From the NCBI RefSeq assembly GCF_900258475.1, contig NZ_LT984887.1:1066354-1130353 (forward strand): a stretch of DNA of 64,000 bases. Reading direction: 5' to 3'. Origin of the DNA: Anaerococcus sp. Marseille-P3915 (GTDB lineage Bacteria; Bacillota; Clostridia; Tissierellales; Peptoniphilaceae). This document shows, piece after piece, positions 9,092-32,020 of the stretch; the stretch's first letter is position 1; every line of letters begins with the position of its first letter. The notes under the pieces were generated by a model that searched no databases, was not told where the DNA came from, and saw only the letters and a program-made list of their open reading frames with translations. The translations under genes and the position numbers were made by a program.

Positions 9092-11014
9092 ATGACTGAA
9101 ATAAAAGATATTTTAAGCTACGACTTTCTTTCAGAATTAGTAGTTTCTAATGATGGCAAAAAAATCGCCTATAAAAAAACTAAAGCAAATGAAAAAGACA
9201 ATAAATACGACACAGATCTTTTCGTCTATGATAAGAAATTAGAAAAATCATACAGGCTAACAGATTCTGGAGCTAATCCTATTTGTAGCTTTAATAAAGA
9301 AAATAATTTAATCTATAAAAGATATACAGATGATAAAACTGATAGCTTCTACATCTCAGATGGGGCTGGTCTTGGAGAAGAACTCTTTAAGCTAGATCTT
9401 GATGTCAAATCTATCAAATGGCTAAGAGATGACATTTTCCTAATTTCTGCAAGCAAGAAAAAATCAAAAGAAGAAAAGGAGACAGATAAGGAAAATTCAT
9501 ACTTCAAAGAACTAACCACCCTTCCTTTCTGGTTTAATGGAGTAGGTTTCTTAAAAGATTCCACCACCTATTATTATCTTTACAAGCTTTCTGATAAGTC
9601 TCTTACAGAAATTTTAAAATCTGATAAAGATAATAGCGTAGGCATCCTTGATATAGATGACAATATTGAAAAAATCGTCTATACAAGAAATCATGAAGAT
9701 TCAAATAGGGTCATGGAGTTTCTTGATTCTATAATTCTAAAAGATTTAAAAACCGGCGAGGAAAAAATTCTAAGCGAGAAATCTCACTCAATTTATACAA
9801 TCAAATTTTTAGAAAATGAAATAGTTTTTGTAGGAAGCGATTTAAAATCAGGTGGAATAAATGAGGACTGCTTCATTTACAAAATAGATGGTGAAGGAAA
9901 AATCTCAAAAATAAATGACGATGATTTTGACAAGTCCTTTGGCAATTCCATAGGAACTGACGCCAGATTTGGGGCAGCTAAGACCTTCCAAGTCAAAAAT
10001 AATAGGCTATACTTTGTATTAACAGAAAAGGAAGAATCCAAGCTTTATTCTATAAACTTAAAAGGAGACCTCCGTTTAGAACTTGATGGTTGTGTAGAAG
10101 ATTTCTCTGTTACAGATGATGATATATATTATCTAGAAATGGCAAAAGATAGCCTAGCTGAACTTAAAGAAAAATCTACTGGCAAAAGCTTGGTTGAAAA
10201 TAAAATCAAAAGCCCTGTCTACCCTATAGAAGAATTTAAATTTGAATCTAATGGTGACAACCTAAAAGGCTATGTCCTCTTGCCAAAGGACTTTGATAAA
10301 AATAAAAAATACCCATGCCTACTTTCTGTTCACGGCGGACCAAAGACAGAATTTTCTGACATCTTCCACCACGAACACCAGACCTTTGCCTCAAATGGCT
10401 ATATAGTAATCTATACCAACCCACACGGCTCAAGCGGAAATGGGGTCAAATATTCAGACATAAGAGGTAAATATGGAGATATCGATTTTTCTGATCTTAT
10501 GAATTTTACAGACCTTGCCATAGAAAAATATCCACAAATAGATCCTGACAGAATGGCTATTTACGGCGGATCCTATGGTGGTTTTATGACCAACTGGGCA
10601 ATAGGACACACAGATAGGTTTAAGGCAGCTTGTGCCCAAAGGTCAATTTCAAACTGGACCAGCTTTTATGGGGTAAGTGATATCGGCTATTATTTTGCAA
10701 CAGACCAAACTGCATCAAACCCATACGATAGCCTTGATAAAATGTGGGACCAATCCCCAATCAAATACGCTGATAAGGTAAAAACCCCAACCCTCTTTAT
10801 CCATTCAGACGAAGACTACCGCTGCCCACTAGAGCAGGGCCTACAGATGTATAATAGGATAAAACTAAATGGAGTAGATACAAAGATGTTCCTATTCCAT
10901 GGAGAAAACCACGAACTATCCAGATCTGGCAAGCCAAAGGCAAGGATTAAAAGGCTTACAGAAATTAAAAACTGGTTCGATAGGTATTTAAAAGATGAAG
11001 ATATCAAAGAGTAA
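9092..11014 (+). CDS. S9-family serine peptidase (acylaminoacyl-peptidase type)
   Basis: The 640-residue cytoplasmic peptidase has an N-terminal beta-propeller region (roughly 1-370) and a C-terminal alpha/beta-hydrolase. The nucleophile is Ser494 in YGGSYGG, with Asp573 in HSDEDYRCP and His607 in GENHELS, forming a complete triad. This resembles YuxL/dipeptidyl-peptidase V or acylaminoacyl-peptidases that release short or blocked N-terminal peptides. A TATAAT at 9059-9064 and AAAGGAG just before the ATG support the start. It heads a three-gene overlapping unit with the YihY and 5-FCL genes. There is no signal peptide. Confidence 0.9.
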   Translation: MTEIKDILSYDFLSELVVSNDGKKIAYKKTKANEKDNKYDTDLFVYDKKLEKSYRLTDSGANPICSFNKENNLIYKRYTDDKTDSFYISDGAGLGEELFKLDLDVKSIKWLRDDIFLISASKKKSKEEKETDKENSYFKELTTLPFWFNGVGFLKDSTTYYYLYKLSDKSLTEILKSDKDNSVGILDIDDNIEKIVYTRNHEDSNRVMEFLDSIILKDLKTGEEKILSEKSHSIYTIKFLENEIVFVGSDLKSGGINEDCFIYKIDGEGKISKINDDDFDKSFGNSIGTDARFGAAKTFQVKNNRLYFVLTEKEESKLYSINLKGDLRLELDGCVEDFSVTDDDIYYLEMAKDSLAELKEKSTGKSLVENKIKSPVYPIEEFKFESNGDNLKGYVLLPKDFDKNKKYPCLLSVHGGPKTEFSDIFHHEHQTFASNGYIVIYTNPHGSSGNGVKYSDIRGKYGDIDFSDLMNFTDLAIEKYPQIDPDRMAIYGGSYGGFMTNWAIGHTDRFKAACAQRSISNWTSFYGVSDIGYYFATDQTASNPYDSLDKMWDQSPIKYADKVKTPTLFIHSDEDYRCPLEQGLQMYNRIKLNGVDTKMFLFHGENHELSRSGKPKARIKRLTEIKNWFDRYLKDEDIKE

Positions 11015-12589: not shown

Positions 12590-12850
12590 CATAGAAAATA
12601 GACTATGAGAAGAAAAGTAGATTTAGTCAAGCACACCTAGAGAGACTACGTGTGGTGAAAGTAGTTTGGCAAGATTAGATTGAAAATGGCCTTTGAGTTT
12701 CTTATCCGATATTTAAGATAAGACGGATTCGCCCGTTATAGCGATAGGGTATGCTAGTACCCGATGAGTTATTAATTGTGAAATTAATTTGAAATTAAGG
12801 TGGTAACACGTGGCAAAGCCTCGTCCTTTACAGGACGGGGCTTTTTTTAT
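12590..12850 (+). promoter_or_regulatory. T-box riboswitch, probably methionine-specific
   Basis: The leader has the long stem I region with an AGAGAG segment, the T-box sequence AAGGTGGTAACACG (12797-12810) that pairs with the uncharged tRNA acceptor end, and a terminator AGCCTCGTCC/GGACGGGGCT followed by seven T (12815-12848). A candidate specifier triplet ATG (12686-12688, in GAAAATGGCC) fits methionine, agreeing with the downstream methyltransferase. Uncharged tRNA-Met would favour readthrough. The specifier is read by position, not by folding. Confidence 0.88.
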
Positions 12851-23640: not shown

Positions 23641-23774
23641 CTAATAATATACATTATAATTTAAAAAATGCAAGATGATAAGGATTTTAAAAATCATCTT
23701 TATATAAAATTAATAAAGAATTCACAATTTTATAAATATATAAGGGTATAATAATTTTACTATGGAGAATGAAT

Positions 23775-25643
23775 GTGAAAGAATTAACTAAACGAAGAAG
23801 AAAATATTATTATTTAAGTATCTTAAGAGCTTTTGCTCTTATAGCAGTGTCTACCTATCACCTTTTTGCCCACGCCTTCCCTGGAGGATTTCTGGCTGTG
23901 ATTGGATTTTTGTCCATGTCGGGTTTTCTGATGGAGATGACTAATGATAGGTTCCTAAGCCTTGAGGATATCTTGGCAAGTATTAAAAATAGAATAAAAA
24001 ATATTTTGCCGCCAATCATTTTTGTGATGGCTATAAGTTTGCTTATTAGTTTGATTTTTGCCAGGGAAATCTTTGATGATTCTGCAAAATCGAGCCTTGC
24101 TACGACCTTTTGCTTTGAAAATATCAGGCAAATCATTGCTGGAGCTTCATATTTTGATAGAAATGGTAATTTCAACCTTTTCATCCATCTTTGGTACATA
24201 TCGATTTATGTCCAATTTATCCTTATATTTTACCTACTAAAATTTATTGGCAGAAAGATAAATTCTGATTCGATTAAGCTTATCTTGCTTAGTATACTAA
24301 CTATCGGATCTATTGGACTTTCTTATTATTTGGCTAATAAGAATGTACCGATTATTAGAATTTATTATGGAACTGATACCAGGATCTATGCATTTTTCTT
24401 GGGGATGATTTTCTATCTACTTTATAAAAATTATGGAAGATATATGGAAATTTCAAAGCTAAGCCTAAAAATAATTGTGGGCGTGCTTGGGATTTTGTTA
24501 TTTGTACCGATGTTTTTTATAAATGGTGAAGATATAAATATCTACAAGACATTTTTCCTAATCTATACCCTAGCTTTTAACCTTTTGATATTTTTTATCT
24601 TTAAGCTAGAAAATAGCCTAGATAAGAGGGAGAGAAAGCTTGGCTGGGGCGGATCTATTTTGGTCTTTATAGGATCTAGGAGCCTACATTATTATATTTT
24701 GCAATATATAATCCAGGTTTTCTTCTCCTACTTCCTTATAAATATTTTTGATAATAAGATTATTTATTACGGCCTACAAATTGCCTGGATAATTTTCTTA
24801 GGAGAAATATCTCATGCAATCTTTTCTAGGAAAAAACTTAACAAATACCTAGTTATCATCCCTTTTGTAAGCCTTATTATCTTTAATATAATTTCACTTG
24901 CTATAGGCAATAAGAAAGAACAAGAAATGGCTGAGCTTAAGGCTAGATTTGAGCAAAGTCAGGAGGAGATTAAAAAGCATAACGAGCTTCAAAAGAAGAA
25001 AAATACCGAAAAAGACCCTAAAGCTCTTCCTAAAGAAGATGAAAAAGATAAGGAAGTAAGCAAAGATAAAAAAGAAAGCAAGAAGGCTGATTCTAACGAA
25101 GATTTCAAGGAAAAGGCCTATGATGATTTTGATTTTACTGAAAATGAGCTAGCCTATGTGAAGGATGTCAGTGTGAGTGCTGTTGGCGATTCGGTTTTGA
25201 TCAATATTGATAAGTACCTAAGAAACTACATGCCTAACCTCTACCTAGACGGCAAGGTTGGACGTGACATGCCTGAAGGACCTGGTATCTTGCAGGCCAT
25301 AAAGAATAATGTCGGTCTTGGCGATATTGTCCTTATTTCTCTAGGATCCAATGGGTCTGCCAACCACAATGATATGCAGGCTATAATGGATATAGCTGAT
25401 GGCAGGGATGTTTATTTTGTAAACACCAGCCACCTACAATCCTATATGGACAAGGTAAATAGCGACTTGGAAGCTTTTGTTAATGACAATCCAAAGGCCC
25501 ACCTAATCGACTGGAGGTCTTATGTAAAAGATAGGCCAGAATTACTCGCTGTTGATAGGACTCACCCAAATGTAGAAGGTAGCCAGGCCTACGCTGACCT
25601 AGTTATTAGAAAAATCTTAAATGAAAATAAAGTAAGACCATAA
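23775..25643 (+). CDS. OatA-like acyltransferase with SGNH domain
   Basis: The protein of about 622 residues has an acyltransferase-3 membrane domain with about ten hydrophobic helices (1-390; early YHLFAH) and a Lys/Glu-rich linker (about 400-455). The C-terminal extracytoplasmic SGNH hydrolase domain has GDSVLIN, SLGSNG and DRTHPN blocks. This is the OatA layout, which O-acetylates peptidoglycan MurNAc and confers lysozyme resistance; other wall glycans are possible. The ATG at 23769 is only one base behind GGAG; GTG at 23775 has proper spacing and is preferred. A TATAAT lies at 23747-23752. Confidence 0.85.
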   Translation: MKELTKRRRKYYYLSILRAFALIAVSTYHLFAHAFPGGFLAVIGFLSMSGFLMEMTNDRFLSLEDILASIKNRIKNILPPIIFVMAISLLISLIFAREIFDDSAKSSLATTFCFENIRQIIAGASYFDRNGNFNLFIHLWYISIYVQFILIFYLLKFIGRKINSDSIKLILLSILTIGSIGLSYYLANKNVPIIRIYYGTDTRIYAFFLGMIFYLLYKNYGRYMEISKLSLKIIVGVLGILLFVPMFFINGEDINIYKTFFLIYTLAFNLLIFFIFKLENSLDKRERKLGWGGSILVFIGSRSLHYYILQYIIQVFFSYFLINIFDNKIIYYGLQIAWIIFLGEISHAIFSRKKLNKYLVIIPFVSLIIFNIISLAIGNKKEQEMAELKARFEQSQEEIKKHNELQKKKNTEKDPKALPKEDEKDKEVSKDKKESKKADSNEDFKEKAYDDFDFTENELAYVKDVSVSAVGDSVLINIDKYLRNYMPNLYLDGKVGRDMPEGPGILQAIKNNVGLGDIVLISLGSNGSANHNDMQAIMDIADGRDVYFVNTSHLQSYMDKVNSDLEAFVNDNPKAHLIDWRSYVKDRPELLAVDRTHPNVEGSQAYADLVIRKILNENKVRP

Positions 25644-25647
25644 TAAA

Positions 25648-25718
25648 AGGCCTAGTGCAGTATGAAAAAAGCCATCATTTAATGACGGCGTTTTTCATTC
25701 ATATTTTGCACTAGGCCT
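25648..25718. terminator. Long two-part bidirectional terminator
   Basis: AGGCCTAGTGCA (25648-25659) pairs with TGCACTAGGCCT (25707-25718), enclosing a second hairpin (GAAAAAAGCC..GGCGTTTTTC). It separates two convergent genes and contains the stop codon of the KdgT-like gene in its right arm. T-runs lie on both sides. Confidence 0.75.
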
Positions 25719-26649
25719 ATTTTTTATTATTCATTTCATATACTTTTTTAACTAAAATTGGTGTAACAATAGATGTAATAACAACACCAAAAGCAATTGC
25801 TGCAGTTGAATTTGCTTTATATATTTCAAGGCTTGGATTAGTTGCTGCAATTATAGATGGTATAGATACACTCATACCAGCAATTGAGTTCATAGCAATA
25901 GAGTTTTTGCCGCTTAATTTTAGCACTTTTCGCTCGAAAATAAAGGATATAGGTAATAAAACTATATAAAAAACCATAGCAAGCAAAATACCTGTAAAAC
26001 CAGACTTGGCTGCTTCTATAATATTAATACCATAACCAAATGACCATCCCATAAGTGGAAGACTTAAGGCCAAGCCAGGTTTCATAAATTCTCCAAACTT
26101 CTTATCAATATTACCTAAAATAAGTCCCAAAACTAGGGGGATGAGTGTTGAAATGATATTCATCCAGTTAATAGGTGAGGATTGAATTAAGCCAAAGAGC
26201 AATAGCGGATAAGCTGGTGTACACATTATTGCAAGGATGCCAAAGCCAGCCTGATCAATGGCTGAGCCATATTCTCCCTCGAGTGCCAAATATAGGGAAG
26301 GATTGGTTGAGGCAAGGCCTACAATTATAGCAAGGGTAGATAGACCCAAGATTCCATCTAATCCAAAAAATTTAAAATATAAAAATCCAAATCCAATAAC
26401 TATAGCTGTTTTAACTAGGGCTAGAAGGCCTGTTCTTTTAAAAACTTGGCCAAGTGTTTTTAAATCAATTACAGCTCCTGAGCAAAAGCAGGTGAAGGCA
26501 ATAATATAAGTAAGCCCATCTTTTGTAAGCAAGGCCTGGGTCATACCTCCAATCATAAATAGATTAGGTGCTAGGGTATAAATAATAGCTGAAATCAGCA
26601 TTGGAACAAGCAACAAACCACCAGGAATTTTTTTCATAAAATCCATCAT
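25717..26649 (-). CDS. KdgT-family permease (2-keto-3-deoxygluconate type)
   Basis: This 310-residue protein has about ten hydrophobic segments and the family features PGGLLLVPMLISA near the start and GLASTNPSLYLALEGEYGS in the middle. KdgT proteins import 2-keto-3-deoxy sugar acids by proton symport. An AGGAG site precedes the ATG. No promoter is evident in the roughly 40 bp between the gene and the tRNA-Val terminator, so expression may depend on readthrough from the tRNA or the catabolic cluster upstream. The cluster enzyme at 26887 is a keto-acid reductase type, which suits such a substrate. Confidence 0.85.
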   Translation of the reverse strand: MMDFMKKIPGGLLLVPMLISAIIYTLAPNLFMIGGMTQALLTKDGLTYIIAFTCFCSGAVIDLKTLGQVFKRTGLLALVKTAIVIGFGFLYFKFFGLDGILGLSTLAIIVGLASTNPSLYLALEGEYGSAIDQAGFGILAIMCTPAYPLLLFGLIQSSPINWMNIISTLIPLVLGLILGNIDKKFGEFMKPGLALSLPLMGWSFGYGINIIEAAKSGFTGILLAMVFYIVLLPISFIFERKVLKLSGKNSIAMNSIAGMSVSIPSIIAATNPSLEIYKANSTAAIAFGVVITSIVTPILVKKVYEMNNKK

Positions 26650-26682
26650 AAGCTACTCCTTAAGTTTTATTTAAGAGATAGT

Positions 26683-26713
26683 AAATAAAAAAATACCCTT
26701 GGCCAAGCCAAGG
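26683..26713 (-). terminator. Terminator behind tRNA-Val
   Basis: CCTTGGC (26697-26703) pairs with GCCAAGG (26707-26713), followed on the minus strand by GTATTTTTTTATTT. It lies between tRNA-Val and the KdgT-like gene. Confidence 0.75.
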
Positions 26714-26729
26714 TGGTCAATATCTCTTA

Positions 26730-26805
26730 TGGTGGGAAGTACTGGGCTTGAACCAGCGACCTCCACGATGTCAACGTGGCGCTCTTCCAGCTGAGCTAAC
26801 TCCCC
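26730..26805 (-). tRNA. tRNA-Val (GAC anticodon)
   Basis: The minus strand folds into a full cloverleaf of 76 nt with encoded CCA. The acceptor stem GGGGAGT pairs with ACTTCCC (one G-T). The D arm has AGCTCAGCTGGAAGAGC, the anticodon stem CCACG/CGTGG holds loop TTGACAT with anticodon GAC (26770-26772), and the T arm has GGTTCAAGCC. It reads valine GUC and GUU codons. Confidence 0.96.
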
Positions 26806-26886
26806 ATGTATATATTATAATAACATTTAAATATAGATTTGTCAAAATAATTGGTCTGGCACAATTATTATACCAGACCTTCCTAC

Positions 26887-27897
26887 CTATCTTCCTAAGT
26901 TTTCTACTTCCTTAAAGATATTATCATCTACTTCAATTCCTGATTCTAGGTTTTTATTCTTTCTTAAAATTAGACCCTGACCAGGATATCTTGGGATTTT
27001 GCCCTCTTCTATTGGATGGGCATATGCAATTCTTTCTTTTATCTTCCTTATGGTCGCTTCATTTTCTTCCTTGGTTGAAAATATTTCTGGATCCATAGCT
27101 ATAAATATTTGTGAGCAGCCTGTACAGTTAAAGGCATCATCATCGTCCATATGGTAGGTTGACTTACCATTTGACAAAAGGGCTGCCATGGTATCTAGGG
27201 CAATTCCAAGTCCTGATCCCTTCCAATATCCTATTGGCAAAAGCCTTCCTGTTTCTTCTATCTTTGCTGGGTCATCTGTTATATTCCCATTAGAATCATA
27301 GCCACCTGGATAAGGTAATTTCTCTCCCTTTAGCCTTGTAGTTTCAAGCTTACCGTAAGAATACAATGACACAGCCATGTCCAGGCAAATATTGCCTGTG
27401 TCAGATGGAATGGCAATTCCTACCGGGTTATTGCCTAAGCTTAGCTCATCAGAACCCCAAAGAGGCAAGACTGATTCTGTATTAGTCCAGCACATTCCAA
27501 TTAGACCCTTATCAGCTATCATTTCCCCATAGGCTCCGCCACGCATCCAATGGGTGGTGTTTCTAAGGCTAACCATACCTATTCCATGATTTTGGGCAAG
27601 GTCTGTCACCCTTTCTACGCAGGCCATGGCATTAATAACACCAAAACCAAGATTTCCATCATAGACTTCACAGGCTCCCTTGGCTTTTTTAAGCTCAATC
27701 TCACCATCAAGATTAATAAGACCATCATTTATAAATTTAACAAGTCTAGGAATCCTATTAAGTCCATGTGAATTAACTCCCTTTAGGGTTGAATCGGCGT
27801 GAACTTCGGCCATGATTTCCGCTCTTTTTTCATCTACCTTATTATTTATTAGGGCAGCTTTTATGGTTTCCTTTAACATTTCATAAGATACTTTCAT
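26887..27897 (-). CDS. Malate/lactate-dehydrogenase-family oxidoreductase, diketogulonate reductase-like
   Basis: The 336-residue NAD(P)-dependent enzyme of the Ldh2/YlbC family has the conserved GVNSHGLNRIPRL near the N terminus, the mid NTTHWMRGGAYGEM and the ILPIGYWKGSG-type loop later on. The pattern is close to 2,3-diketo-L-gulonate reductase (DlgD/YiaK), including HGIGMVSLRN and the CWTN segment. It probably reduces a 2-keto acid or diketo acid. It overlaps the HExxH gene by 17 bp and has GGAGAAA before its ATG. It is the last gene of a four-gene unit. Confidence 0.88.
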   Translation of the reverse strand: MKVSYEMLKETIKAALINNKVDEKRAEIMAEVHADSTLKGVNSHGLNRIPRLVKFINDGLINLDGEIELKKAKGACEVYDGNLGFGVINAMACVERVTDLAQNHGIGMVSLRNTTHWMRGGAYGEMIADKGLIGMCWTNTESVLPLWGSDELSLGNNPVGIAIPSDTGNICLDMAVSLYSYGKLETTRLKGEKLPYPGGYDSNGNITDDPAKIEETGRLLPIGYWKGSGLGIALDTMAALLSNGKSTYHMDDDDAFNCTGCSQIFIAMDPEIFSTKEENEATIRKIKERIAYAHPIEEGKIPRYPGQGLILRKNKNLESGIEVDDNIFKEVENLGR

Positions 27898-28516
27898 CTT
27901 TTTCTCCTATAAGTTTATTAAATATGATTTCTTCTCCATTATAAGCTCTGGCTAAAAAATAATCTAAAAGTGCAGGATTAAAGTCCAAATCTAGAAATTC
28001 TTTAGCAAAAACCATAGCCCCTATTTCACTAGGGGACTTTAGTTTTACTTTCTTTTTAATAAACCCAAAAAGCTTGTAACTTACATAGATATTATCTGTG
28101 ATAAGCCTATCTTCTTCAAGCTTGTGATATATTTCATGGCAAGTTATAATCTCCTTAGGACTTACTTTGGAAAAAATTTGCTTATCTTCCTTTGCCATTT
28201 CATCTTCAAGGATTTTTATATTATCCTTATGAAATATTATCTTATTTGGACTTTCAAACAGAGCTAGGTCATATAGATTGAAGATATTTTGGCTAATGCC
28301 TTCTTCAAATACTAGGCCGTATTTATTTTTAAGGTCAGAAAGGCCAATCTTTTGCTCTTTCAACTCTTTGGCACAAAGACTAGCACAATGCATACTTTGC
28401 CTTATTATTTCATCCGAATTTTCTATCCTGTCCTTAAAAACATCAGCTTTTAAAAGATAGAAATAATAGAAATAATCATCTAACTTTAACAAACTTTTTA
28501 ATTTTTTATCTTCCAT
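27881..28516 (-). CDS. Unknown protein with HExxH motif
   Basis: I do not recognise this 211-residue protein as a named family. It has an HEIYH motif at residues 127-131 (sequence TCHEIYHKLEEDRL) with Glu164 (SEIGAMVFAKEF) well placed as a third ligand, the layout of a small zincin metallopeptidase. There is no signal peptide, so it should be cytoplasmic. The N-terminal half is rich in aromatic and acidic residues and contains Cys44 and Cys48. It overlaps its upstream gene by TAATG and its downstream gene by 17 bp, so it is locked into the catabolic unit. A peptidase, or a hydrolase using the same fold, is possible; the function is not shown by sequence. Confidence 0.75.
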   Translation of the reverse strand: MEDKKLKSLLKLDDYFYYFYLLKADVFKDRIENSDEIIRQSMHCASLCAKELKEQKIGLSDLKNKYGLVFEEGISQNIFNLYDLALFESPNKIIFHKDNIKILEDEMAKEDKQIFSKVSPKEIITCHEIYHKLEEDRLITDNIYVSYKLFGFIKKKVKLKSPSEIGAMVFAKEFLDLDFNPALLDYFLARAYNGEEIIFNKLIGEKDESIL

Positions 28517-30642
28517 TAAAGATCGTTTTTGGCTCCGACTAAGATTATATCTTCGTTTCCTTCTCTTAGTGATAGTTCTGAATCAAGGAGCATATTTAGC
28601 TGGTCTAGGCTTGTTAGGCCTTCAAAGTCTACGATTTTCGCACCTACACATAAGTAGAGGTCTGGGTTTAGCTTGATATCAGACTTAAAGACTGCAAGAT
28701 CATTCCACATATTGCCAGCAAGAGTTCTTGCTCCACCAGCTGTAGCTTTTGCTGCTACTGCATCTGCTCTTTGAAGCTTTATGAAGCCCTTCTTATCAAT
28801 AGCTCTAAGCTCTTTCTTGTTACCTTTTTGACTTGTATAAACTCTGAAGAATTCATTTTCTGTTTCTTTGTTGATTTGACTCTTTTCAACTCCAAAGCTT
28901 TCAGCAACTAGGTCTAGGGCCTCTTCTTCGGTGATTTCCTTAGAGAGGTCTTGACTTGCTATTTCTGTTGATCCTGTTGCTATGGCACGGACCTTGGATG
29001 TTTGCTGGTCAATTTCTATTTGAATTTCTACAGATTCTGGTGTTGCTCCTGATTTGATTACTTGATCGGTTGCTTCATTTCTTAAATCTATTATATCTTC
29101 TCTAGTTGGTTGAGGGATTACTCTTTCTACTACATCCCTTACCATAGCTAGAGCTACACCGATTGATGATATAATCTCTGCCTTATCTGCTAGGGTGTAT
29201 GGAACTCCAAGTTTGTCAGCTGCAAATGGTAGGAGGACTTTTGCTCCACCGCCACCACCGACTATGGTTGTTTGAGATTCTTCTACCCTATACTTATCCA
29301 TAAGGTCTAATATTACTTCATTTGTGGTTTTGGCTGCATCATCAAGCACTGCCCTTGCAGCGTCATCTCCACTCATACCCAAGAATTTACCAAGGACTTC
29401 GAAGCATCTTTTTGCTGATTCTGGATTTCCATAAGAATAGTCGCCTTCTTCGATAATTCCTAGGGCATTTGCTGCACAGGTTGTAGTAAGGGCGTAATCT
29501 TTGCCATTGGCCCTGATTGCTATATAATCTGCTGGGTCTCCCTTTGTTGGTGATAATTGAATTACTTCTGGATTTTCAAATTCCTTAGGATCAGTGAAGA
29601 CTACATAAGGAAGGTTGGCTATGTGGCAAGATCTTGGGCCTACTTTTACAATTTTCCCATTGTTAGCTCTTATCATTGATCCACCAGCAACACCTACTGT
29701 CCTAACGTCCATGGAGTTTACCATAGTTCTTTGACCACCAACTACCGCATAATCTATCATTGGTCTACCATTTTTGATAACTCCTATGTCTGTAGTTGTT
29801 CCGCCTACCTCAAAGAAAATACCATTTGATACCCTCAGGTACATAAGAGCTCCGACTGTCGATGCAGCTGGTCCTGAAAGCATGGTTAGTACTGGCCTAT
29901 TTCTCATCTCTTCGATATCCATTACGCCGCCATCTCCACGCATTATCATAAGGGGTGCTCCTATTCCTGCCTTCTTTACCGCATCTTCTGTTGAATCTGC
30001 AGTAGAAATCATCCTTGGAAGGATTGAGCCGTTGATTACGGCTGTTCTTGTTCTTCTAGTTAGGCCGTATAGTTTTGAAATCTCACTTGCTGCACAGACT
30101 TCTATGCCCTTTTCCTTGCCAAGTTCTTTGATAAGAAGCTCTTCATCCATTCCATCAACACCAAAGGTTTTTGATGCTGCTATTACTCCACATCCTTCAG
30201 CGATTAAATCATCCATTAGCTTTGATACTAATTCTCTTGAAAAATCTTTCCTATTGACAAACCTATAGGCAGTTGTGATTTTTCTTTTGCCTGATTCATC
30301 TAGGACTATGTCCTTAATTTTACCTTGAATTTTAGATAAAAATCCTACAAGGCCTCCATCAGCAATTCCGATCACTCCTACCTTGGCTACATCTCCTTCA
30401 ACTAGGGCATTTGTAGCTTGGGTTGTGGAATGAGCAATGAAAACCACTTCATCACTTGATATATTATTTTCGGTCAGACATTTTTTAAATGATTCTATTA
30501 CACCAGCACTTACTCCCAGCTCATGGTCGTGGGTTGTTGGAATAATACCAACTCCTACTATTTCATAAGTCTTATTATCTATAGCAACTGCCTTTGTATT
30601 AGTACCACCAACATCTATACCTACACGTATTTGTTTACTCAT
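28516..30642 (-). CDS. Hydantoinase/oxoprolinase-family protein (HyuA-type)
   Basis: The 708-residue cytoplasmic enzyme has an ASKHA-like phosphate binding start (VGIDVGGTNTKAVAIDN), a middle AASTVGALMYLRVSNG and a GGTTTDIG block, all features of HyuA N-methylhydantoinase/5-oxoprolinase subunits. These enzymes use ATP to open a cyclic amide. HyuA usually works with HyuB, which is absent here, so this is one of the single-chain members whose substrate is unknown. It begins 8 bp after the permease stop with AGGAG, and shares one base with the next gene. It sits in one operon with a permease and a keto-acid reductase. Confidence 0.85.
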   Translation of the reverse strand: MSKQIRVGIDVGGTNTKAVAIDNKTYEIVGVGIIPTTHDHELGVSAGVIESFKKCLTENNISSDEVVFIAHSTTQATNALVEGDVAKVGVIGIADGGLVGFLSKIQGKIKDIVLDESGKRKITTAYRFVNRKDFSRELVSKLMDDLIAEGCGVIAASKTFGVDGMDEELLIKELGKEKGIEVCAASEISKLYGLTRRTRTAVINGSILPRMISTADSTEDAVKKAGIGAPLMIMRGDGGVMDIEEMRNRPVLTMLSGPAASTVGALMYLRVSNGIFFEVGGTTTDIGVIKNGRPMIDYAVVGGQRTMVNSMDVRTVGVAGGSMIRANNGKIVKVGPRSCHIANLPYVVFTDPKEFENPEVIQLSPTKGDPADYIAIRANGKDYALTTTCAANALGIIEEGDYSYGNPESAKRCFEVLGKFLGMSGDDAARAVLDDAAKTTNEVILDLMDKYRVEESQTTIVGGGGGAKVLLPFAADKLGVPYTLADKAEIISSIGVALAMVRDVVERVIPQPTREDIIDLRNEATDQVIKSGATPESVEIQIEIDQQTSKVRAIATGSTEIASQDLSKEITEEEALDLVAESFGVEKSQINKETENEFFRVYTSQKGNKKELRAIDKKGFIKLQRADAVAAKATAGGARTLAGNMWNDLAVFKSDIKLNPDLYLCVGAKIVDFEGLTSLDQLNMLLDSELSLREGNEDIILVGAKNDL

Positions 30643-30650
30643 ATTTTCTC

Positions 30651-31958
30651 CTATCTACCAAAGAATACAAAAACTAAAAATAAATTTATAGCTGTGATCA
30701 ACCATGCCCAAGGTAGACCAGTTTTCATAAAATCTTTGACACTTACCTTACTGTAGTTTAATGCCCACAAGTTCCAAGACTGAGTTGGACAAGCAGAAAG
30801 GTTCATAGCTATGGTTGGTACATACATGAGAGTAAATAAGAAGGCTGTTGGGAAATCTCCTAAAGCATTTAAAACTCCTACTGTTGCAGCACCTGCACCA
30901 AATATTGTAAGTGGTCCCCTAAATAGGCCAAGTGGCGCCATAATCATAAAGGCTATGGCAAGGCCAAGGGTTGTTGTTGGCAAGATATCTCCTAGGATTG
31001 GGTCAAAGAAAGGAGCTGCTATACCAGAAATCTTATTAAACATTGGAAGAATAAATAAGAAACCTAATAGGGAAGCAACATCTATTACACCTTCATAGAA
31101 GGTAGAAGATATTATTCTTGACATCTCTGACCAAGACCTACCAATCATCTTACAAGTAGCAAGTCCAAATACAGCTCCTACTATAAAGGCAGGAATTGTT
31201 GGCACCTTGAAGGCTATTGATAAAAATGTTGGGATAATAGGAGTAAATAAAGCATACCATGGTACCCTATCCATATCATTAGCCTCATTTATGTCCACTC
31301 CCCAGGCCTTTCTCTTTCTTCTTCTTGATGAAGCAAAGACCTTCATATAAGTAAATAGCATTATTCCTATAACAACAAGTTGGACTGCCATTGCAGCAAA
31401 GGCCCAGCTTATGTATTGATCTGAATAGGTCATATCTTCAAAGATAGCCTGCATTTGACTAAATAAAACCGGGTTAAGGTACATACCACTACCAACACTC
31501 ATAAGATAAGCTGAAACCGCCAAGAACTTTGGCACACCAAGGCTAAGTAGGATAGGTAAAACAATAACACCTATAGCTACAACAGCACCAGCACCAAAGG
31601 TTGCTGTAAAAATGATACCGGTTACAAGAGATAAAAGAAGGGTAACAATAAGGGGATCATCTCCACCCAACTCTGTTACAGACTTTATAAGCTTGCTTGC
31701 TATGCCTGTATCTACCAATATCTTACCAAACCAAGAACCAAAGATAACATTAACCGCCGTAGCGCCCCATGATTCTGGTCCCTTTTGCAAAATTTCTGTC
31801 ATTCCGTCTGTAAGACTTATTTGACCACCCACTATACAAAGACCAAGCCATAAAACAGCCATGACAAAGAAACCAGTCATAAGGTTTCCGCCCTTGGCTG
31901 CATATACTGCAAGCCCTATATAGGTGATAATCAAAAGAATACCAATGATTAAATCCAT
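30651..31958 (-). CDS. GntP/CitMHS-like permease
   Basis: The 435-residue membrane protein has about 11-12 hydrophobic segments and a glycine-rich FTATFGAGAVVAIGVIVLPILLS region typical of GntP/CitMHS-type transporters of carboxylates. It is the first gene of the hydantoinase unit, with strong AGGAGG before its ATG. Its promoter carries a palindromic operator. By position it should import the compound opened by the hydantoinase-family enzyme, but that is inference. The precise family is uncertain. Confidence 0.75.
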   Translation of the reverse strand: MDLIIGILLIITYIGLAVYAAKGGNLMTGFFVMAVLWLGLCIVGGQISLTDGMTEILQKGPESWGATAVNVIFGSWFGKILVDTGIASKLIKSVTELGGDDPLIVTLLLSLVTGIIFTATFGAGAVVAIGVIVLPILLSLGVPKFLAVSAYLMSVGSGMYLNPVLFSQMQAIFEDMTYSDQYISWAFAAMAVQLVVIGIMLFTYMKVFASSRRRKRKAWGVDINEANDMDRVPWYALFTPIIPTFLSIAFKVPTIPAFIVGAVFGLATCKMIGRSWSEMSRIISSTFYEGVIDVASLLGFLFILPMFNKISGIAAPFFDPILGDILPTTTLGLAIAFMIMAPLGLFRGPLTIFGAGAATVGVLNALGDFPTAFLFTLMYVPTIAMNLSACPTQSWNLWALNYSKVSVKDFMKTGLPWAWLITAINLFLVFVFFGR

Positions 31959-31991
31959 ATAATCCTCCTATATATTTTATAATTCATTTTA

Positions 31992-32020
31992 ATTATAACT
32001 AATTAGTTAAGATTAGTCAA
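31992..32020 (-). promoter_or_regulatory. Promoter of the hydantoinase unit with internal palindrome
   Basis: Minus-strand TTGACT (32015-32020) and TATAAT (31992-31997) are spaced by 17 bp. The perfect 14-bp palindrome TAACTAATTAGTTA (31996-32009) lies in the spacer and overlaps the start of the -10, the classic repressor position. The 5' leader before the gene is about 30 nt. Confidence 0.75.

Follow-up and report, generated by a model that had tools for sequence, protein, structure and literature searches.

What does a HyuA-type protein do in a cell that encodes no HyuB? This question is raised by four adjoining genes in a 64,000-nucleotide stretch of DNA from Anaerococcus sp. Marseille-P3915 (contig NZ_LT984887.1, positions 1,066,354 to 1,130,353), hereafter called the window and numbered from its first letter. 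On the minus strand of the window, from 31958 to 26887, the genes for a permease, a HyuA-like protein, a small protein with an HExxH motif and a YiaK-type reductase follow one another in this order:

30651-31958, minus strand: DcuC/IT-superfamily-like permease, 435 amino acids (from the open reading frame (ORF) list and a weak match to the DcuC model)
28516-30642, minus strand: HyuA-like ASKHA protein, 708 amino acids (PF01968, PF05378 and fold model)
27881-28516, minus strand: HExxH protein, 211 amino acids (motif and predicted IrrE/ImmA-like gluzincin fold)
26887-27897, minus strand: YiaK-type 2-keto-acid reductase of the 3-dehydro-L-gulonate 2-dehydrogenase family (PF02615 and NF009750)

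The original prediction, which was made from the letters of the window alone, described the four genes as one overlapping unit. The junctions bear this out, with a gap of 8 bp between the permease and HyuA genes, an overlap of one base between HyuA and HExxH, and an overlap of 17 bases between HExxH and YiaK. The reductase matched PF02615 and scored 361.5 bits against the NF009750 equivalog (cut-off 316), and its closest solved chain was E. coli YiaK (1nxu); activity toward 2,3-diketogulonate is predicted at the level of the family. The permease matched the DcuC model weakly (28.6 bits, cut-off 100). The answer that we favor, with a probability of roughly 0.4, is that the operon is a peripheral module feeding a sugar-acid derivative into hexuronate/2-keto-3-deoxygluconate (KDG) catabolism, in which HyuA would activate the substrate with ATP and the HExxH protein would be the metal partner in the place of HyuB.

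One line of evidence for this reading is the pairing of HyuA with the HExxH protein. In a set of 31 genomes of the genus, the window's own (G000) included, the four-gene order was found in five (G000, G006, G016, G018, and G023), and G029 carried a variant block with a HyuA at 44%. In the four other genomes with the full order, HyuA was 80-83% and the permease 78-84% identical to the window's proteins, and the closest named locus among the matches listed was that of Anaerococcus marasmi (HyuA 83%). A species scan of 84,980 genomes gave the best 80 loci; with two duplicates removed and the window's own and the genus loci added, 86 were analyzed. HyuA was called in 79 of these, and partners were counted at loci with enough flanking sequence. 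Of the 73 loci in which 900 bp or more followed HyuA, clustering placed an HExxH-family gene in 68, and two further loci (L077 and L116) had an HExxH ORF within 2.5 kb. Where 1,400 bp or more preceded HyuA (74 loci), a permease homologue was present in 72, mostly directly upstream of HyuA. The conserved core is the permease, HyuA, and the HExxH protein. The original prediction had named scattering of the genes in all relatives as an outcome that would speak against it; instead, the genes recur as a unit.

Sampling the phylum evenly, we searched 299 genomes for the HyuA subfamily (E <=1e-120) and, by profile, for the HExxH family (E <=1e-3). The former was detected in 14 genomes and the latter in 13, all within those 14, an overlap with a random-placement chance of about 7e-22, though the genomes are not independent. 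In the fourteenth genome (G089), the HyuA gene lies 378 bp from a contig end. HyuA and HExxH shared one contig and strand in 12 of the 13 genomes, with spacings between a few bases and 3.7 kb, and were on separate contigs in G299; the HExxH matches in G138 and G312 were partial, at between about one quarter and one third of the profile length. Across 64 loci, the HExxH and HyuA distance matrices were correlated when the permease was controlled for (partial r 0.56, reached by 0 of 999 permutations), and the corresponding value for HExxH and the permease, with HyuA controlled for, was 0.12 (reached by 41 of 999). The HyuA-HExxH pairing is near-obligate.

We then asked what kind of protein this HyuA is. 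PF05378 (63.4 bits) and PF01968 (221.9 bits) both matched above their gathering cut-offs, and the core of its predicted model (predicted local distance difference test score (pLDDT) 83.8) matched acetone carboxylase beta (Z 29.3), acetophenone carboxylase alpha (Z 24.3), N-methylhydantoinase (Z 21.5), and caprolactamase (Z 20.6), the best chain of each aligning over 505-511 residues. Alignments to ketone-carboxylase/hydantoinase chains spanned 505-516 residues, and none of the six chains went past residue 566; an extra C-terminal region, about 570-708, was left without any listed structural match. Asp10 aligns with the catalytic Asp11 of the caprolactamase subunit CapA and was kept in 39 of 39 subfamily members. 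HyuA domains, the ASKHA core, Asp10, and Gly-rich motifs are shared with the hydantoinase/ketone carboxylase family (N-methylhydantoinase, 5-oxoprolinase, CapAB, and the acetone and acetophenone carboxylases). In contrast to that family, the window's HyuA has no HyuB or beta subunit, the next gene encoding the HExxH protein; it has Glu278 for the second catalytic Asp; and its C-terminal region is unmatched. Glu278 aligns with CapA Asp295 and was Glu in 38 of 39 members, whereas Asp occupies this position in the aligned N-methylhydantoinase, caprolactamase, and acetophenone carboxylase chains and in all six other HyuA-family proteins of related genomes (L021-L026).

Position 17 splits the HyuA proteins into two types, with Lys in 83 loci and Asp in six (L061 was unreadable). 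At the Asp17-type loci, a flavin adenine dinucleotide (FAD) oxidoreductase was found in five of six by tblastn and in the sixth (L123) by eye. Residue 285, after the second Gly-Gly-Thr motif, was Asn in 21 of 39 members; the other 18, the window's protein among them, have Asp. At locus L037 (genome G034, from another genus of the family), positions 9509-10799 hold the C-terminal ~210 residues of a HyuA (62% identical) adjoining an HExxH gene, with the ASKHA part gone. This remnant may represent either decay or a hint of an association between the C-terminal part of HyuA and the HExxH protein.

The HExxH protein of the window had no family match at E 0.001 in a library scan. Among its relatives, H127, E128, and H131 were invariant (46 of 46), E164 and F170 were kept in at least 90%, and all 75 clustered members with lengths between 175 and 330 amino acids had the motif. 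When the 46 relatives were scanned singly against Pfam at E up to 0.1, matches were sporadic and weak, with best E values of 7.9e-4 for a topoisomerase domain and 1.3e-3 and 3e-3 for the zincin families PF01435 and PF06114. PF06114 (M78) did not match the window protein and matched 2 of the 46 members at E up to 0.1; one relative scored 17.8 bits against it (cut-off 22). An AlphaFold2 model built from an 11-sequence alignment (pLDDT 86) aligned best to PprI/IrrE, with a Z of 7.9 (below 8) over 110 residues and a root-mean-square deviation of 2.9 A. Weaker alignments were obtained with a mycobacterial regulator (Z 7.0) and with abylysin and selecase (both Z 4.7), and a Foldseek search with the model returned nothing at E 0.001 or better.

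As modeled, the HExxH protein best resembles the IrrE/PprI gluzincins. It has in common with IrrE/PprI-ImmA (M78) and with the minigluzincins abylysin and selecase the HExxH motif, a downstream Glu, and, at Z values below 8, some overlap of predicted fold. Unlike IrrE/ImmA, proteins of the window's type pair with HyuA rather than with an XRE regulator, and their Pfam matches are few and weak. HExxH paralogues were also seen at two loci without HyuA (L039 11686-12393 and L040 8456-9145), beside ROK-type kinases and DUF523-like genes identified by eye, possibly another use of this zincin family. A muramic acid lactam was considered as the substrate because these paralogues lie near ROK kinases and murein-recycling-type genes (by eye), and the idea was dropped, as the two loci have no HyuA.

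HyuB (PF02538) was detected in 0 of 61 related genomes, the window's own among them, compared with 6 of 14 control genomes; the HyuA-type protein had been correctly called as one without HyuB. Five of the 61 genomes carry other HyuA-family proteins (28-34% identity), likewise without HyuB. As these HyuB-less genomes hold another HyuA type too, the absence of HyuB is weaker evidence for a metal partner in its place. The other-type HyuA genes of L021 and L022 adjoin a DUF917-like gene (by eye), and an annotated DUF917-HyuA pair lies on a Listeria innocua plasmid:

L021 408-3051, L022 955-3670, and L154 2902-5545: second HyuA type lacking HyuB, next to DUF917 or a DUF917-like gene (the Listeria locus also has a cytosine permease)

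The Listeria pair (QMF10_RS01330-01335) resembles the window operon in combining a HyuB-less HyuA with a permease and a second, different protein. It differs in that the partner is DUF917 rather than HExxH and the permease is a cytosine permease; the DUF917-paired HyuA is shorter (~517 amino acids) and 27-34% identical over the first 340-540 residues. The partners of HyuA modules are not limited to HyuB, and the HExxH partner is what is special here.

We next considered the genes around the module. Counted anywhere in the 86 loci, the recurrent families were LacI-type regulators (34), PfkB KDG-kinase-like proteins (29), GntR-type regulators (28), YiaK (22), 2-keto-3-deoxy-6-phosphogluconate (KDPG)-aldolase-like proteins (21), SIS isomerases (20), YhcH (20), HxlA/KGPDC-like proteins (16), and UxuA (10). 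Single representatives scored above cut-offs for mannonate dehydratase, HxlB (184 bits, cut-off 160), YhcH, and a second YiaK (486 bits), and below them for the KDG-kinase-like, KDPG-aldolase-like, and HxlA families. Within the Lys17 clade, a homologue of YiaK, UxuA, YhcH, KDG kinase, EDA, HxlA, or HxlB was located near 59 of the 83 loci (tblastn 1e-10). Elsewhere in the window's genome, a LacI-family gene, uxuA, and genes for glucuronate isomerase, KDPG aldolase, and a KDG-kinase-like protein lie in a row. UxuA was present in all six genus genomes with a subfamily HyuA and in 11 of the 25 others (chance of 6/6, ~0.017).

A shared operator links the cassette to these genes in three relatives. 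The sequence TGTAAGCGATTACA stands directly before the permease start in G006, G018, and G023. The rare LacI-type operator TGTAANCGNTTACA has two copies in G006 and two in G018; in either genome, one copy lies at the cassette and the other precedes a uxuB-like gene and uxuA. G023 has four copies, one at the cassette, two before lacI-uxuB-uxuA, and one before a GPH-type transporter. The four copies of G016 lie at uxuB-uxuA, before a GPH transporter and beta-glucuronidase (two), and before a lacI-family gene. A reversed control pattern had no matches in the five cassette genomes. Among 19 of the 31 genus genomes, TGTAANCGNTTACA was found in 8 of 9 with UxuA (the exception being G004) and 0 of 10 without it, the control again giving 0, and in all eight genomes having the site a copy lay within ~3 kb of uxuA. 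Judged by these sites, G006, G018, and G023 appear to have the cassette in their hexuronate (uxu, glucuronate-mannonate) regulon; by extension from these relatives, the window's own cassette may belong to such a regulon as well.

The TGTAANCGNTTACA site resembles a catabolite-responsive element (cre box). Control of the common operator by CcpA was less fitting, as a wider pattern gave 5-9 strand matches per genome compared with 3-8 for the reversed control. The exact operator lies at uxu/glucuronide genes and also directly before a lacI-family gene in three of the five genomes, and a local LacI repressor would fit better than CcpA.

How far does the module extend beyond the genus? Its genes adjoin one another also in Chloroflexota, Streptomyces, and haloarchaea. 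Plasmids of Haladaptatus and Halostagnicola carry, as annotated, a citrate transporter, HyuA, and a hypothetical protein of 171-173 amino acids with HELAH and HELGH motifs; an FAD-dependent oxidoreductase gene lies near these sets (PF12831 in Haladaptatus). In Streptomyces NBC_01237, HyuA and a 200-amino-acid HEAVH protein lie between two genes identified by eye, one for an FAD-type oxidoreductase and one for a DcuC-like permease.

Our literature search on the HyuA-HExxH module found one relevant paper (PMC11581127). It describes genes of Ruminococcus gnavus (FXV78_RS16940-16965) encoding YhcH, mannonate dehydratase, a hydantoinase, a hypothetical 'peptidase', 3-dehydro-L-gulonate 2-dehydrogenase, and a further hypothetical protein, which its authors regard as one operon. 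These were the top induced genes with 0.1% agaro-oligosaccharides (log2 fold change 4.14-4.35), treated cells being sampled at 72 h and controls at 48 h (PMC11581127). The table and the Discussion of that paper conflict in their assignment of locus tags to genes, and the passages on which we draw propose no function for the HyuA or the peptidase (PMC11581127). HyuA, the 'peptidase', and YiaK are found in both the R. gnavus operon and the window, the homology being by annotation only. The former comes from a gut member of the Lachnospiraceae under an agaro-oligosaccharide condition and adds UxuA and YhcH.

A mechanism can be proposed from these comparisons. In the HyuA family, ATP activates a carbonyl to a phosphoenol or phosphoimidate (PMC5214803). 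Caprolactamase needs CapA Asp11 and Asp295 together with the metal ligands of CapB, and the activated lactim is thought to reach the CapB metal site through a tunnel (PMC8453981). In the window operon, the permease would import an anionic sugar-acid derivative, if it works in that direction, and HyuA would activate a carbonyl of the imported substrate in an ATP-dependent manner, as a phospho-enol or phospho-imidate as in its relatives. The HExxH gluzincin may then supply a metal site that completes cleavage in place of the missing HyuB. Asp10 is invariant, the counterpart of Asp295 is Glu in nearly all members, and CapB/HyuB is absent; by analogy with caprolactamase this is the simplest reading of the protein. 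YiaK would presumably act next, reducing the released keto acid, and the product would pass to mannonate dehydratase, KDG kinase, and KDPG aldolase, directly or, in other species, after anomerization by YhcH.

With the E. coli yia (2,3-diketogulonate, YiaK) and uxu (hexuronate) pathways as a comparison, the window operon shares the YiaK-type reductase; other loci of the subfamily add YhcH/YiaL, UxuA, and KDG-kinase- and KDPG-aldolase-like genes, and in three relatives the operator is common to the cassette and the uxu genes. In contrast to the E. coli systems, in which uptake is by a tripartite ATP-independent periplasmic (TRAP) transporter or a phosphotransferase system, the window operon has a DcuC-like permease and a HyuA/HExxH pair, and no sugar kinase. 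L-ascorbate and isoascorbate (erythorbate) were considered as substrates from chemistry alone, and we do not claim either. Opening of isoascorbate would give 2-keto-D-gluconate, and reduction at C2 could yield D-mannonate for UxuA.

Several observations weigh against the proposal that HyuA and the HExxH protein jointly process a sugar-acid derivative. At L069, L096, and L098 (3 of 73 loci), no HExxH-family gene and no HExxH ORF was found, and G037 has HExxH relatives and no HyuA match. In Selenomonas (L124), the order is FAD oxidoreductase, transporter, and HyuA, with no adjoining annotated HExxH gene, and in Deinococcus (L125), HyuA adjoins an FTR1-type permease and a protein without HExxH. 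The HyuB-less HyuA type with a DUF917 partner belongs here too, as does the replacement of CapA Asp295, a residue whose Ala mutant is nearly dead, by Glu in 38 of 39 members. The single TGTAANCGNTTACA of the window's genome lies at lacI-uxuA, and the cassettes of the window and G016 are without it. Of 12 genomes outside the genus, five had the operator pattern, all five lacking a UxuA match, and six had the reversed control; as the control is just as frequent there, the pattern is meaningful within the genus only. The remaining partners vary (YiaK/UxuA, HxlA/HxlB, an FAD oxidoreductase, or a regulator alone), and a single fixed pathway is therefore unproven.

IrrE-type zincins are often proteases that act on regulators. 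The main rival explanation is that the HExxH protein is a regulatory or maturation protease in the style of ImmA/IrrE, processing HyuA or a regulator, and that HyuA alone is catalytic. We consider this unlikely, if still a serious contender. It would account for PprI/IrrE as the best structural match (Z 7.9) and for the fast divergence of the HExxH protein, which is only 42-43% identical to the window's in the four other genus members, compared with 78-84% for HyuA and the permease and 62-72% for YiaK; such divergence is odd for a subunit with a common active site. However, nearby regulators vary (LacI, GntR, IclR) and yet the HExxH gene stays with HyuA, the distance matrices link it to HyuA and not to the permease, and no regulator-like gene adjoins the window cassette (by eye). 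HyuA might also, with its partner, be a true ATP-dependent lactamase or hydantoinase acting on a cyclic amide such as a hydantoin, 5-oxoproline, or a sugar lactam. Its domains and its core fold, which is like those of N-methylhydantoinase and caprolactamase, agree with this, and two-subunit HyuA relatives are described as cyclic amidohydrolases (PMC5214803). We nevertheless regard a cyclic amide as decidedly unlikely, given the lack of HyuB in all 61 genomes, the Glu at the second catalytic position, the hexuronate regulon of the relatives, and the recurrent neighbors, among which no amide- or nitrogen-specific genes were seen by eye. A sugar-acid lactam would fit a cyclic amide substrate and the hexuronate regulon alike.

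In another explanation, HyuA is an ASKHA activator or chaperone, similar to a reactivase, for another enzyme or the permease, and does not phosphorylate a substrate. Its fold is indeed like those of 2-hydroxyglutaryl-CoA dehydratase component A (1hux, Z 17.7) and diol dehydratase reactivase (2d0o, Z 17.5), and the Asn in place of Asp285 in 21 of 39 members would be compatible with such a role. The matches to hydantoinases and ketone carboxylases, on the other hand, are longer and stronger (>500 residues, Z 20-29), and only the permease is constant among the neighbors, with no client enzyme, so we judge this role very unlikely. Returning to the preferred module for sugar-acid derivatives, a wider claim can be raised tentatively and with considerable doubt: HyuA and the HExxH protein could represent a new two-component class of ATP-dependent enzymes, in which HyuB of a HyuA-type ASKHA kinase is replaced by an unrelated IrrE-like zinc protein, opening a sugar-acid derivative outside the known uronate pathways in Bacillota, Chloroflexota, Actinomycetota, and haloarchaea.

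The relatives treated in PMC8453981 and PMC5214803 use a second subunit, which is metal-binding in caprolactamase and two ketone carboxylases. If the proposal is true, an ATP-activation module has been recombined with a different hydrolase in a widespread HyuB-less subfamily. This would offer a handle on genes of gut and soil bacteria that are labeled merely 'hydantoinase/oxoprolinase family protein' or 'hypothetical protein', and a testable link between the agaro-oligosaccharide-induced gut operon of R. gnavus and hexuronate catabolism. The locus is of interest for the near-obligate pairing of HyuA with the HExxH protein and for the regulon link of this pair, both beyond the reach of single-sequence reading.

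The ends of the operon and the genes that follow it are marked by the features below:

31992-32020, minus strand: sigma-70-type promoter upstream of the permease gene, TTGACT-17-TATAAT, matching the consensus at 11 of 12 positions
31996-32009, no strand: perfect 14-bp palindrome TAACTAATTAGTTA within the promoter, a possible operator
26853-26879, minus strand: terminator-like stem-loop after YiaK, the end of the four-gene operon
26817-26845, minus strand: promoter-like site of tRNA-Val
26730-26805, minus strand: tRNA-Val(gac), outside the module
26697-26713, minus strand: terminator-like stem after tRNA-Val
25717-26649, minus strand: KdgT-family permease (PF03812), a neighbor outside the conserved module

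The promoter noted in the original prediction is present, with a possible operator in it, although promoter-like sites across the region are not in excess (27 compared with 23.8 in shuffles). The palindrome covers part of the promoter spacer and takes in the second hexamer's first two bases. Its 12-bp core has a single exact copy in the window, and it differs from the operator found at the cassettes of the relatives.

The KdgT-family permease scored 296 bits against PF03812 and 136.5 bits against the TIGR00793 equivalog, whose cut-off of 453.8 was not reached. We rejected it as a member of the pathway. In the four other cassette-bearing genus members (L030-L033), the 18-20 kb surrounding the cassette showed no KdgT homologue. 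Because of this, and because terminator-like stems and a tRNA intervene, KdgT is probably a separate unit and a bystander to the four-gene operon. The original prediction, which suggested that the locus could import a cyclic amide or sugar-acid derivative, open it, and reduce the product, and which listed KdgT alongside, is partly supported: it gained a sugar-acid/keto-acid setting from YiaK, UxuA, YhcH, the KDG-kinase- and KDPG-aldolase-like genes, and the uxu operator of three relatives, and lost KdgT from the conserved unit.

Two genus members that lack HyuA (L131 and L132) have, as seen by eye, KdgT-like genes close to YiaK. At L132 (6132-18619), YiaK lies with a TRAP transporter and with YhcH-like, ketopantoate-reductase-like, and glucuronate-isomerase-like genes (by eye); its reductase is of the same kind, probably fed by a different importer. 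Elsewhere in the window, a T-box leader was found on the plus strand at 12596-12831 (120 bits). Between serS and the four-gene block, positions 23769-25643 encode an OafA-like acyltransferase (PF01757). Its homologues (51%), with serS nearby, also flank the block in L030 and L031, and this common flank places the block at the same chromosomal position in three species.

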